From Faecalicoccus acidiformans (GTDB lineage: Bacteria > Bacillota_I > Bacilli_A > Erysipelotrichales > Erysipelotrichaceae), in contig NZ_JACHHD010000015.1 of assembly GCF_014202635.1 (NCBI RefSeq), forward strand, positions 1 to 59,098: a DNA stretch of 59,098 nucleotides, written 5' to 3'. Below, piece by piece: positions 52,293-58,965 of the stretch; the first letter of the stretch is position 1; every line of letters starts with the position of its first letter. The position numbers and the translations under genes were made by a program. The notes under the pieces are model-generated. The model worked only from the letters and a program-made list of their open reading frames with translations, was not told the DNA's origin and ran no database searches.

Positions 52293-52964
52293 ATGGATCA
52301 AAATTTCAACAAGGTATTCTGGGATGCTTGTGCCAATGGAGATTTCCCAATGGTCTGCGGACAGATCAAAGCAGGTGCTGATGTAAACTATCAAAACGGA
52401 GATGGAAGAACGGCCCTGATGCGTGCCGCAAAACGTGATCGGAAAGATGTAGTGCAAGTGCTCATTGATAATGGCGCGGACGTGAATCTAGTGGATAATA
52501 AAGGAAAAACGGCTTTGATGGGTGCTGCCAAAAAAGGAAATAAAACGATTTGTAAAGCTTTATTAGATGCCGGAGCAGACGTGAATGCAAAAGACGATCG
52601 CGGCCGTACCGCTTTGATGCGTGCTGCCTTATTAGGGCAAGATCGTTGTGTACAAGTTCTTTTGGATGCCGGAGCGGATATCAATGCTCAGGATGAAGTA
52701 GGGCGTACTGCTTTAATGGAAGCTTGTATAGCTTTTAAGCGGGATACGATTTCAATTTTGTTAGAAAGAAATGCCAACGTGAATTTATTTGATAATAATG
52801 GATGTACAGCTCTGATGCGTGCCGCTTATGGAGGATATCCAAGCCTTGTTGAAAAATTATTGTCTTATGGAGCTGACAAAGATATGCAAGATAAACAAGG
52901 GAACGTTGCACTAGATTATGTACGCGAACATTGCCGCGCTCAACTAGAGCCGATCTTAAAGTAG
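52293..52964 (+). CDS. ankyrin-repeat protein
   Basis: A 223-aa protein made of about six 33-residue ankyrin repeats from residue 5 to the end, with the consensus GRTALMRAA...LLDAGADVNAKDD. There is no signal peptide or membrane helix, so it is cytosolic and probably binds a protein partner. AGAGGAGGA precedes the ATG. It is 12 bases upstream of the EF-G paralogue, so the two are co-expressed; whether they interact is not known. The repeats are highly alike and may have expanded recently. Confidence 0.9.
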   Translation: MDQNFNKVFWDACANGDFPMVCGQIKAGADVNYQNGDGRTALMRAAKRDRKDVVQVLIDNGADVNLVDNKGKTALMGAAKKGNKTICKALLDAGADVNAKDDRGRTALMRAALLGQDRCVQVLLDAGADINAQDEVGRTALMEACIAFKRDTISILLERNANVNLFDNNGCTALMRAAYGGYPSLVEKLLSYGADKDMQDKQGNVALDYVREHCRAQLEPILK

Positions 52965-55122: not shown

Positions 55123-56865
55123 ATGAAAACTTTTCAACATTTTTTGACATACTATAAACCATATTTAGGCGTTTTCTTCTTAGACTTATTCTGTGCCTTT
55201 TTAGTTTCTGTTATCGATTTAGCATTTCCTTTGATCTTGACATATTGTACCGATGTCTTATTCATTCAAAAATCGGCCGAAATTTTGGACGGACTTTTGA
55301 TACTCGGCCTATTTTTATTCGGCATGTATTTGATTCGTGCGGTTTGCCGATACTATGTCAGTGCCCAGGGACACATCATGGGAAGTTATATGGAACGCGA
55401 TATGCGAAAGGATCTCTTTGATCAATATCAAAGATTGTCCTTCTCTTATTATGATCGTCATAATACGGGAATCATGATGTCGCGCGTTGTCAGTGATTTA
55501 TTTGAAATTTGCGAATTTGCACATCATGGCCCTGAAAATCTTTTCATTTCTTTAGTCAAGATTATAGGTTCATTTGTGATCTTAGCTTTTATTTTTTGGC
55601 CGCTGGCTTTAATTCTGTTTTTGGTAACGATGATCATGTTGGTTTTCAGCTATTTTCAGAACAAAAAGATGCAGGAGACCTTTATGGATAACCGTCGTAA
55701 GATTGGGGAAGTGAATGCATCTTTACAAGATTCTTTAGCGGGAATACGCATCGTTCAGTCTTTTACGAATGAGGAGATTGAAAAAACAAAATTTGAACAT
55801 TCTAATGATGAATTCTTGGAGTCTAAAAAGCGTAACTATCATGTCATGGGAACGTATTATTCTTTTAACAATTTTTTTCAAGGAATGCTTTATCTGACTG
55901 TGATCGTGGCAGGTGGTCTCTTTGTAGCTCAAGGAGAGCTGAGTCCTTTGACACTGGCCACGTTTGCACTTTATATCAACATTTTTGTAGCTCCAATTGA
56001 TATTTTGGTTGAATTTACAGAAATGTTCCAAAAAGGTTTTTCGGGGTTTAAGCGTTTTGAAGAAGTGATGAAGGAGATTCCAGAAATCCAGGATGCCAAA
56101 GATGCGAAGGATTTGGAACATGTTCGAGGAGACATTTGTTTTGAAGATGTTTCTTTTACATATAATAAAGAAGAATCGGTTCTAGAACACGTGAATCTGA
56201 CTATACCTGCAGGTCAAAAATTAGCTTTAGTAGGGCCAAGCGGCAGTGGTAAAACGACACTTTGTTCTTTGATTCCCCGGTTTTATGATGTGGACCAAGG
56301 ACGTGTTTTAGTGGATGGACAAGATGTCCGGGATTTAAAATTGAAATCTTTGCGACAGGCTATTGGCTTAGTTTCTCAAGATGTTTATTTATTTTCAGGC
56401 ACGATTGAGCAAAATATTCGTTATGGCAAACCGAATGCGACAACCAAAGAAATCGTTGAGGCTGCTAAAAAAGCGAATATTCACGAATTCATTCAATCTC
56501 TTCCTGAGGGTTATGATACTTATGTTGGAGAAAGAGGCGCTCGTTTATCCGGCGGGCAAAAACAGCGTATATCAATTGCTCGCGTTTTTTTGAAAAATCC
56601 AAAGATTTTAATCTTGGATGAAGCAACAAGCGCTTTGGATAATGAAAGTGAACGGATCATACAAAGTTCTTTGGATCGCTTGAGTGAAGGAAGGACGTGT
56701 ATAACGATCGCTCATCGTCTATCGACGATTCAGAATGCTGATGAGATCGTTGTGATCGATCAGGATGGGATGAAAGAAAAAGGAACTCACGAAGAACTTT
56801 TGAAAAAGAATGGAACTTATGCCCGATACTACCATCTTCAATTTTCGAAAGAAGAGGATGAGTAA
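55123..56865 (+). CDS. ABC exporter (half-transporter, MsbA/BmrA type)
   Basis: A 580-aa half-transporter: six membrane helices (1-310) then an ATPase (Walker A GPSGSGKTT, signature LSGGQKQR, Walker B ILILDEATS, H-loop AHRLST). It should function as a homodimer, exporting lipid or drug. ATG 55123 follows GGTGAGA; the frame is open upstream but has no ribosome site. The acetyltransferase fusion starts 21 bases later. Confidence 0.94.
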   Translation: MKTFQHFLTYYKPYLGVFFLDLFCAFLVSVIDLAFPLILTYCTDVLFIQKSAEILDGLLILGLFLFGMYLIRAVCRYYVSAQGHIMGSYMERDMRKDLFDQYQRLSFSYYDRHNTGIMMSRVVSDLFEICEFAHHGPENLFISLVKIIGSFVILAFIFWPLALILFLVTMIMLVFSYFQNKKMQETFMDNRRKIGEVNASLQDSLAGIRIVQSFTNEEIEKTKFEHSNDEFLESKKRNYHVMGTYYSFNNFFQGMLYLTVIVAGGLFVAQGELSPLTLATFALYINIFVAPIDILVEFTEMFQKGFSGFKRFEEVMKEIPEIQDAKDAKDLEHVRGDICFEDVSFTYNKEESVLEHVNLTIPAGQKLALVGPSGSGKTTLCSLIPRFYDVDQGRVLVDGQDVRDLKLKSLRQAIGLVSQDVYLFSGTIEQNIRYGKPNATTKEIVEAAKKANIHEFIQSLPEGYDTYVGERGARLSGGQKQRISIARVFLKNPKILILDEATSALDNESERIIQSSLDRLSEGRTCITIAHRLSTIQNADEIVVIDQDGMKEKGTHEELLKKNGTYARYYHLQFSKEEDE

Positions 56866-56886
56866 GGGCAATGAAGGAGAAACGAC

Positions 56887-57837
56887 ATGATCCGACCAAT
56901 TCACACAACAGATTTAGACGCGATTTATAAGATCTACGCTCATTATGTAAACACAACGGCTTATAATTTTGATGATCAACCGAAACCTTTTACAGTTTTT
57001 TGTCAAGAAATGAAAGCAATAGCGAGAACATATCCTTTTTATGTGGCAACGTACAAAGATGAAGTCCTAGGTTATGCTTATGTGCATCCGGCTTTTCAGA
57101 AAAAGGCATATCAGTATTGTGTAGAAGTAACGATCTATTTTAGAGAAGGAAATCATTATGGAATGGCTTCTAATTTGCTGGAGACATTAGAAAATGCGTG
57201 TCGGGAGAACTCGTTTCGCTGGATGATTTCCTGTATTACCGATTCGAATGATCGAAGCATTGCGTTTCACAAAAAACATGGATATATCCAAATGGGGAAG
57301 TTGCCAGAATGTGGTTGGAAAGGTGGCCAATGGAATGGAGTGATCTGGATGTGCAAAGATCTTTCATCTTCTTTTTCTTCTTTTATAGCAGACTCGGCGC
57401 AAGTGATAGGGGATGTTGAAATCGCTGAGGAATCCAGCATTTGGTTTGGATCTGTCGTTCGTGCGGATCAGGAAAAAATAACGATTGGTAAACAAACTAA
57501 TATTCAAGATCATTGTACACTGCATTGTTCTGTAGGGCATCCTCTTGTAATCAAAGATCGGGTTACCGTTGGGCACGGAGCGATTGTTCATGGATGTACG
57601 ATTGAAGACGAAGTGCTGATCGGGATGGGAGCAATCGTCCTTGATGGTGCTTATATTGGCTCTCACTCAATCATTGGAGCTGGGGCATTGATTCCAGAAG
57701 GTATGAAAGTTCCGGAAGGGTCTGTCGTTTTGGGCTGTCCTGGGACGATCCGTCATCAAATAACAGCTGAACAGCTGGAAAGAATCAAAAACAACGCGAT
57801 GGAGTATGTGGAACTCGCAAAACAGTATAAGGGGTAA
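56887..57837 (+). CDS. fusion of GNAT acetyltransferase and gamma-carbonic-anhydrase-like protein
   Basis: A 316-aa chain. Residues 1-154 are a GNAT N-acetyltransferase of the phosphinothricin-acetyltransferase type (IRPIHTTDLDAIYKIY start; acetyl-CoA loop near REGNHYGMASNLL). Residues 160-316 are a left-handed beta-helix of the gamma-carbonic-anhydrase/YrdA type with metal histidines His213, His230 and His235 (VGHGAIVHGC). The two are normally separate. An in-frame ATG at 57349 (Met155), preceded by GGAGTGATC, could start the second domain alone. It follows the ABC exporter by 21 bases and the hydrolase starts three bases after it. Confidence 0.85.
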   Translation: MIRPIHTTDLDAIYKIYAHYVNTTAYNFDDQPKPFTVFCQEMKAIARTYPFYVATYKDEVLGYAYVHPAFQKKAYQYCVEVTIYFREGNHYGMASNLLETLENACRENSFRWMISCITDSNDRSIAFHKKHGYIQMGKLPECGWKGGQWNGVIWMCKDLSSSFSSFIADSAQVIGDVEIAEESSIWFGSVVRADQEKITIGKQTNIQDHCTLHCSVGHPLVIKDRVTVGHGAIVHGCTIEDEVLIGMGAIVLDGAYIGSHSIIGAGALIPEGMKVPEGSVVLGCPGTIRHQITAEQLERIKNNAMEYVELAKQYKG

Positions 57838-57840
57838 ACT

Positions 57841-58965
57841 ATGGAAAATTTATTGAACTACGTTCATTTACGAAAAGATATTTCTTTCAAGGAACGAAAA
57901 CTAAATTCAGTCGATTTGTTGATCTTTAGTGAATTAGCCTACGTTGATTTTTCTATAGAAATGGAAAATGGTCCTATTCTATTGCCAGAGGCTTGTAGAC
58001 ACTATATTGAATCCCGTTCCCCTGAATATATCAAAGGTTATTTTTGTTTCTCAAACAACATACCTGTTTTGGTTCAAGAACTTTGCGAGTGTCCTCGGTT
58101 TGCTAATGTATGGATCCGGAAAGTAGAGCAATGTAATGACGATGAAAAAAAGATTCAATTTGGAGCGACTCTGTTCCAAATAGAAGATAAAGATATGATT
58201 GTGAGTTATCGAGGAACCGATGCGAGTATGACCGGATGGAAAGAAAATATGCAGATGACGTATATGGATGATTTGCCATGTCAAAAGATGGCGGTTTCGT
58301 TTTTTGATTCGATCATTGATGAGATTCCTGCGGAGTCTTATCTATTTGGCTTTTTTCAAAAGAAAAAGATCCCGAACTTCTATTTGACCGGCCACTCAAA
58401 AGGCGGACACTTGGCTATGTATACATTTTTAAATACTCAATATCCTGCTCAGGTCAAAAAATGTCAGGTGTTTGATGCACCCGGATTTCGTTCATCTTTT
58501 GTAAAGTCTTTAGAGAATCGGGATATATTTTCGCAAATTGAAAACATAAAACCGCAAGACTCGATTATTGGGTGCTTAATGGAGCATCCAGAAAAAGAAA
58601 CAGTTATTAAAGCACAAGAAGAAGGACTTCTTCAACACGATGCGTTTTATTGGTCAATTCAGCCGGAAGGCTTTGAGAAAACAAAGAGTTTATCGATTAA
58701 GAGTCATGATACGATTGCTTTGATCGATCGTCTGTTGCTGTCGAAGTCGGACGAACAAAAAAAAGAAGCAATCGATTTGATCTTTTCGATTTTGGATCGC
58801 TTGGATATTACATCTGTATCCGGATTGAATGAGATCCACTTTCGGCAGATTTTCCAAGGAGTTATCGAATTAAAAAATATGACACAGGAAGAACGAAAAT
58901 TCATGTTTGATATTATTCGATTTCTGGTCTCACAAACTGCCTCATGGATGAAAACACAAAAATAG
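57841..58965 (+). CDS. DUF2974/Mbeg1-like alpha/beta hydrolase
   Basis: A 374-aa protein of the lipase-like DUF2974 family. GHSKGGHLA carries the nucleophilic serine, SYRGTDAS is the oxyanion-hole-side motif, and a late SHDT is likely the catalytic histidine. No signal peptide. It probably hydrolyses an ester, substrate unknown. Three bases after the fusion gene, so co-transcribed. AAGGGG precedes the ATG. A terminator follows. Confidence 0.88.
   Translation: MENLLNYVHLRKDISFKERKLNSVDLLIFSELAYVDFSIEMENGPILLPEACRHYIESRSPEYIKGYFCFSNNIPVLVQELCECPRFANVWIRKVEQCNDDEKKIQFGATLFQIEDKDMIVSYRGTDASMTGWKENMQMTYMDDLPCQKMAVSFFDSIIDEIPAESYLFGFFQKKKIPNFYLTGHSKGGHLAMYTFLNTQYPAQVKKCQVFDAPGFRSSFVKSLENRDIFSQIENIKPQDSIIGCLMEHPEKETVIKAQEEGLLQHDAFYWSIQPEGFEKTKSLSIKSHDTIALIDRLLLSKSDEQKKEAIDLIFSILDRLDITSVSGLNEIHFRQIFQGVIELKNMTQEERKFMFDIIRFLVSQTASWMKTQK

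Follow-up and report, generated by a model that had tools for sequence, protein, structure and literature searches.

The window analysed here, a contig of 59,098 nucleotides from Faecalicoccus acidiformans (NZ_JACHHD010000015.1), contains a gene in which a GNAT acetyltransferase and a gamma-carbonic anhydrase (gamma-CA) are joined in one polypeptide. The fusion is genuine, is old enough to cross genera and, as far as seen, is confined to the Erysipelotrichaceae, because ten genomes of this family carry the open reading frame (ORF) and none was found outside it in the samples searched. As far as the searchable open-access papers show, the GNAT-CA fusion is undescribed: nothing relevant to the pairing of GNAT and gamma-CA was found in them, although both families are known. 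The whole is likely to represent a single bifunctional GNAT-CA polypeptide that was assembled at tsaD, with some lineages losing one of the halves; the activities, the oligomeric state and the order of events are what we infer from the comparisons described below.

Distribution of the fusion

Full-length fusions were found in 10 of the 273 Erysipelotrichaceae genomes searched, namely that of the window (1.77 Mb, 99.7% complete, the window being one of its contigs) and those of nine relatives, which together with it represent five genera. The proteins of the relatives are 47-81% identical to the window fusion in the alignment and are read in the same frame, and none of the ten genes contains an internal stop. 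Many other genomes of the family encode a free gamma-CA only. At the thresholds used, at which divergent fusions could be missed, no fusion was detected beyond the family in samples of the order (316 genomes), the class (395) and the phylum (392). A non-exhaustive pattern scan of 84,980 species, from which 80 loci were kept, recovered the fused form only in Faecalicoccus and Holdemanella, and none of the plasmid records spanned both halves.

The sequence-only reading of this DNA had left room for the fusion being a sequencing artefact and had pointed to fused homologues as the way to find out; the nine relatives answer this. The chance that a sequencing or assembly error joined two genes is negligible: free versions of each half do occur in other genera, but nothing was found to support an artefact, and the same ORF is present in ten separate assemblies, including those of F. 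pleomorphus DSM 20574 and Holdemanella biformis DSM 3989.

Domain architecture and structure model

The features of the gene and its immediate neighbors are collected in Table 1. Residues 2-154 match the Pfam family PF13420 (Acetyltransf_4; 61.4 bits against a cut-off of 24.3), and residues 164-315 match the NCBIfam gamma carbonic anhydrase profile with 173 bits over profile positions 15-166; the CA half is also matched by PF00132. The CA half misses the equivalog cut-off of NF050158 (173 against 250 bits), with the first 14 profile positions unmatched, and the free gamma-CAs of the Erysipelotrichaceae likewise score below this cut-off. The earlier description of an acetyltransferase and a complete beta-helix in one frame is therefore correct as to the single ORF, both domains and the beta-helix itself, but the standard N-terminal gamma-CA segment of approximately 14 residues is absent. 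Several free gamma-CAs of the family (loci L120, L128, L129 and L162) apparently also start without this segment, and short forms seem, judging from these sequences, to be tolerated in the family.

Table 1. Coordinates of the fusion gene, its parts and its neighbors in the window
Feature	Position	Strand	Basis or remark
GNAT-gamma-carbonic-anhydrase fusion gene	56887..57837	+	single uninterrupted ORF, 316 aa, ATG start
Shine-Dalgarno (SD) sequence AAGGAG and spacer of the fusion's own start	56873..56886	+	sequence; SD pairing -9.2 kcal/mol
GNAT half, residues 1-159, PAT/ArsN1-like	56887..57363	+	PF13420, ArsN1b profile, fold match
Last GNAT beta strand, residues 148-158, with M155 inside	57328..57360	+	AlphaFold2 model, DSSP E148-158
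GGAGTGATCTGGATG, proposed internal SD and ATG (57349); codons of G151-M155	57337..57351	+	not conserved; synonymous shuffles give an equal signal
Linker codons, residues 159-163	57361..57375	+	model and alignment; sequence and length variable
Gamma-carbonic anhydrase half, residues 164-316	57376..57834	+	NF050158 and PDB matches, invariant residues, fold Z ~30
ABC transporter, 21 bases upstream of the fusion	55123..56865	+	adjoins the fusion in 4/4 genomes of the genus
Mbeg1-like (PF11187) gene, 3 bases downstream of the fusion	57841..58965	+	also follows the fusion in Holdemanella and g62

An AlphaFold2 model of the fusion, built on 61 aligned sequences, has a mean pLDDT of 96.3; its pTM of 0.73 means that how the two domains sit relative to each other is uncertain. 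In fold comparison, the GNAT half (residues 1-162) resembles PAT, ArsN1 and PA4866 structures with Z of 24-26, and the CA half (from residue 162 to 316), a left-handed beta-helix followed by a C-terminal helix, resembles gamma-CAs with Z of 27-30. The sequence-only reading had placed an internal ATG, the codon of M155, exactly at the seam between the halves. In the model, M155 lies inside the GNAT domain and the seam at about residues 159-163, because the last GNAT strand comprises residues 148-158; GNAT chains from the PDB align to the model through residues 159-162.

Active sites and carbonic anhydrase content

Residue E80, present in all ten fusions, aligns with Glu88 of ShPAT, which is the general base of that enzyme (PMC6465285), and the positions of the substrate-binding arginines of PpArsN1, Arg75 and Arg77 (PMC6465285), are occupied here by Phe70 and Lys72, both invariant in the fusions. 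The CoA pyrophosphate loop (R/Q-x-x-G-x-G/A) appears as the variant N-H-Y-G-M-A, in which the Gly and the Ala are in place and the Arg/Gln position varies among the fusions. The GNAT half scores below the NCBIfam equivalog cut-offs for ArsN1b (108/210 bits), PAT (87.5/300 bits) and ArsN1a (60/170 bits), and two ArsN1 arginines are replaced; the half is PAT-like but probably has a different substrate. The possibility that the half is a decarboxylase of the GNAT fold, supplying the carbonic anhydrase with CO2, was also considered and set aside, as the half matches the PAT/ArsN1 acetyltransferases.

In the CA half, H213, H230, H235, R192, N205, Q207 and Y307 are invariant in the alignment of the ten fusions. 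In the phmmer register, the three histidines correspond to His64, His82 and His87 of gamma-CaCA, and R192, N205, Q207 and Y307 to its Arg43, Asn56, Gln58 and Tyr159; in gamma-CaCA, the metal is bound by His64, His82 and His87, with Tyr159, and Arg43, Asn56 and Gln58 are conserved catalytic residues (PMC12648627). The features of Cam, that is, the proton-shuttle Glu85 in an acidic loop, Glu63 and Asn203, were not found in the fusion, which has no acidic loop after H213 and has Y307 at the position of Asn203. The Cam-type proton-shuttle loop is likewise missing from gamma-CaCA, and low activity has been reported for a related gamma-CA (PMC12648627).

Each of the 15 genomes examined contains one strong gamma-CA match, fused or free, and in 14 of them no beta-CA was found. 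Nine of the ten fusion genomes yielded no gamma- or beta-class CA besides the fused domain; in the genome of the window, where a search for the alpha class was also negative, the fusion is the only CA found among the alpha, beta and gamma classes searched. G000 and the 14 related genomes may depend on a single gamma-CA, and its constant presence across the 15 genomes argues for an enzymatic role of the CA half beyond that of a scaffold.

Gene order and origin of the fusion

In four of the five genera, g22 (Holdemanella), g62, g74 and g14, the fusion lies directly 3' of tsaD, and in g62, g74 and g14 the tsaD stop codon overlaps the fusion start (TAATG). In G060 (Absicoccus) and G014 (Catenisphaera) only a CA occupies this slot, and in G191, G031 and G006 only a GNAT. 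The CA-only gene of G060 begins with a GTG that overlaps the tsaD stop and encodes 149 aa starting at the beta-helix. The slot after tsaD is thus variable across genera, holding fusion, GNAT or CA, and the start position at the tsaD stop is reused (loci L036, L008/L037, L119/L152, L147, L148, L112-L114, L005 and L006). A HAD hydrolase gene, guaA or both come next in several of the tsaD-slot loci.

An ABC transporter gene and an Mbeg1-like gene flank the fusion in all four Faecalicoccus genomes. In the genome of the window, tsaD is found on another contig, where an opposite-strand PfkB-like gene (L135:521-1423) lies between tsaD and the HAD gene; this PfkB-like gene occupies the place where other genera have the fusion. 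The fusion and the Mbeg1-like gene seem to have moved together, since the Mbeg1-like gene comes after the fusion in Holdemanella and g62 as well, and the two may form a functional unit. Farther upstream in the window (52293-52964), a 223-aa ankyrin-repeat-like protein is encoded just 5' of an EF-G-like gene.

In the GNAT tree, the GNAT halves of the fusions group with the GNAT of G191 (94/86), beside other tsaD-linked GNATs. In the best CA tree, from which some of the tsaD loci holding the fusion were left out, the CA halves are interspersed with free CAs, so that five changes are needed; a single clade of CA halves is not rejected (p-AU 0.15, or 0.24 with two tsaD-linked CA-only genes added). 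The fusion was probably assembled in the tsaD slot and later came apart in places, given that relatives hold a GNAT alone or a CA alone there. Since the usual N-terminal segment is missing from the tsaD-linked CA-only genes as well as from the fusions, a CA would have been joined to the tsaD-linked GNAT before one of the halves was lost. Repeated fusion or replacement of the CA is also possible on these trees.

Alternative explanations

The CA half could be no more than a scaffold for trimerisation, the role that the gamma-CA-like domain of CcmM has in Synechococcus elongatus, with the GNAT as the working part. Gamma-CA-like domains do act as trimerisers elsewhere (PMC8580825), and the proton-shuttle Glu and acidic loop of Cam are missing from the fusion (PMC12648627), but we regard this explanation as unlikely: none of the ten fusions departs from the three metal-binding histidines or from the Arg, Asn, Gln and Tyr, G060 and G014 have a CA in the tsaD slot with no GNAT attached, and one gamma-CA is retained, fused or free, in 15 of 15 genomes. 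There is an even slighter chance that the CA half acts on acyl-CoA instead of CO2, like the thioesterase PaaY, and handles acyl groups in concert with the GNAT. A match to the PaaY profile (103 bits) and the report that Acinetobacter PaaY is a thioesterase with gamma-CA activity (PMC467105) would agree with such a role; however, the score falls far short of the TIGR02287 cut-off of 319.6, the match to the gamma-CA profile is closer (173 bits), and no adjoining gene is recognisable by sequence as belonging to acyl-CoA degradation.

The sequence-only reading had further proposed that ribosomes also start at the ATG at 57349, so that a free gamma-CA of 162 aa would be made beside the fusion. An in-frame ATG is indeed present there, behind a GGAG with 8 bases between, and alternative in-frame starts are known in bacteria (PMC11005335), including the gamma-CA-like fusion CcmM with its internal start (PMC8580825). 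The shorter product could fold, as the start lies at a similar depth in some of the family's free gamma-CAs, and CA-only genes share the tsaD slot. The site was described as near-ideal, yet its SD pairing is -5.9 kcal/mol, against -9.2 kcal/mol at the gene's own start, and is weaker than at most starts in the window. Among the 53 crudely called genes of the window, the median SD value is -7.3 at the first ATG and -8.15 at the best start, and values of -5.9 or better occur at 33 of 52 first-ATG starts and at 21 of 440 internal ATGs, which places the site in approximately the strongest 5% of the latter. An ATG with an SD of -4 or better within the 22 junction codons is present in five of the ten fusions, against 4.7% of the other stretches of these genes, but this enrichment is explained by synonymous codon shuffles, which give the same signal (P 0.49-0.51 for the window and 0.23 for all ten genes; genus-averaged P 0.09 with ATG only and 0.18 with ATG, GTG and TTG). 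A hand-picked subset of six genes gave P 0.01, but the choice favoured the stronger members.

Neither is the site conserved. The codon at the M155 position is ATG in 5/10 fusions, a Leu codon (TTG, CTT or TTA) in 3/10 and TTT (Phe) in 2/10, and Met is the usual residue there in free GNATs without any CA (15 of 21), more often than in the fusions. The nearest relative has GGCG in place of GGAG, with an SD of -1.7, the junction of Holdemanella biformis (L005) contains no ATG, GTG or TTG, and the SD bases are paired in the predicted RNA centroid. The SD-like GGAGTG consists of the codons of a conserved Gly-Val, and these bases follow from the conserved W-x-G-V-x-W-M strand; the internal start is not supported by the sequence, and a dual product appears very unlikely. 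The same holds, at much the same strength, for a version in which junction starts differing between lineages would yield the fusion and some free gamma-CA, and thereby mixed trimers with one to three GNAT domains.

Discussion

The bifunctional polypeptide that we favor would combine two activities which, to our knowledge, have not been linked before, those of a small-molecule acetyltransferase and a carbonic anhydrase. The PAT/ArsN1-type GNAT would use an acyl-CoA, presumably acetyl-CoA, to acylate a primary amine, E80 serving as the general base. The CamH-type CA half would form the usual trimer, with a metal at each interface to which one subunit contributes H213 and H235 and its neighbor H230, and would hydrate CO2, perhaps slowly. 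Such a trimer would bring the GNAT domains together. As the PAT/ArsN1 GNATs are dimers whose active sites are shared, two trimers could plausibly pair into a hexamer. With respect to origin, the tsaD-linked GNAT gene would have been joined to a gamma-CA gene within the family, one half being lost later in some lineages.

The conserved fusion ties a GNAT to what is apparently the sole carbonic anhydrase of these gut bacteria and offers a clean way to test the need for the CA and to find what is acetylated by the GNAT. The tsaD slot, which in close relatives holds the fusion, the GNAT or the CA, is a compact natural series for the gain and breakup of a domain fusion. The internal start, if repeated unchecked, would mislead, as a protein motif here imitates a ribosome binding site.

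Among known systems, the PAT and ArsN1 enzymes (5jtf/5wph, 5t7d, PA4866) share with the GNAT half the fold (Z 24-26), the general-base Glu and the overall length; the fusion differs in its scores below the family cut-offs, in Phe and Lys at the positions of ArsN1 Arg75 and Arg77, and in its C-terminal CA. PaaY has the same gamma-CA fold as the CA half (8gpp, Z 28.4) and, like the proposed bifunctional protein, has been reported to possess a second catalytic activity, but both its activities reside in a single domain, without a GNAT, and the fusion is far below the PaaY profile cut-off. CcmM (M58/M35) of beta-carboxysomes is, like the fusion, a multidomain protein with a gamma-CA-type domain; in CcmM, however, this domain is N-terminal, the partner is SSUL and not a GNAT, and the CA function has been lost in S. 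elongatus. CcmM also has a short isoform, whereas in the fusions the start codon and SD show no conservation beyond what the amino acids require. The closest counterparts of the CA half are the CamH/YrdA-type gamma-CAs (gamma-CaCA 9qev, Pyrococcus horikoshii 1v3w and Clostridioides difficile 4mfg), which are alike in fold (Z 29-30, rmsd 0.7-0.8) and share with it the three metal-binding histidines and the Arg, Asn, Gln and Tyr; the known members of this type are stand-alone proteins, whereas the fusion carries a GNAT domain in place of their N-terminal segment of approximately 14 residues.
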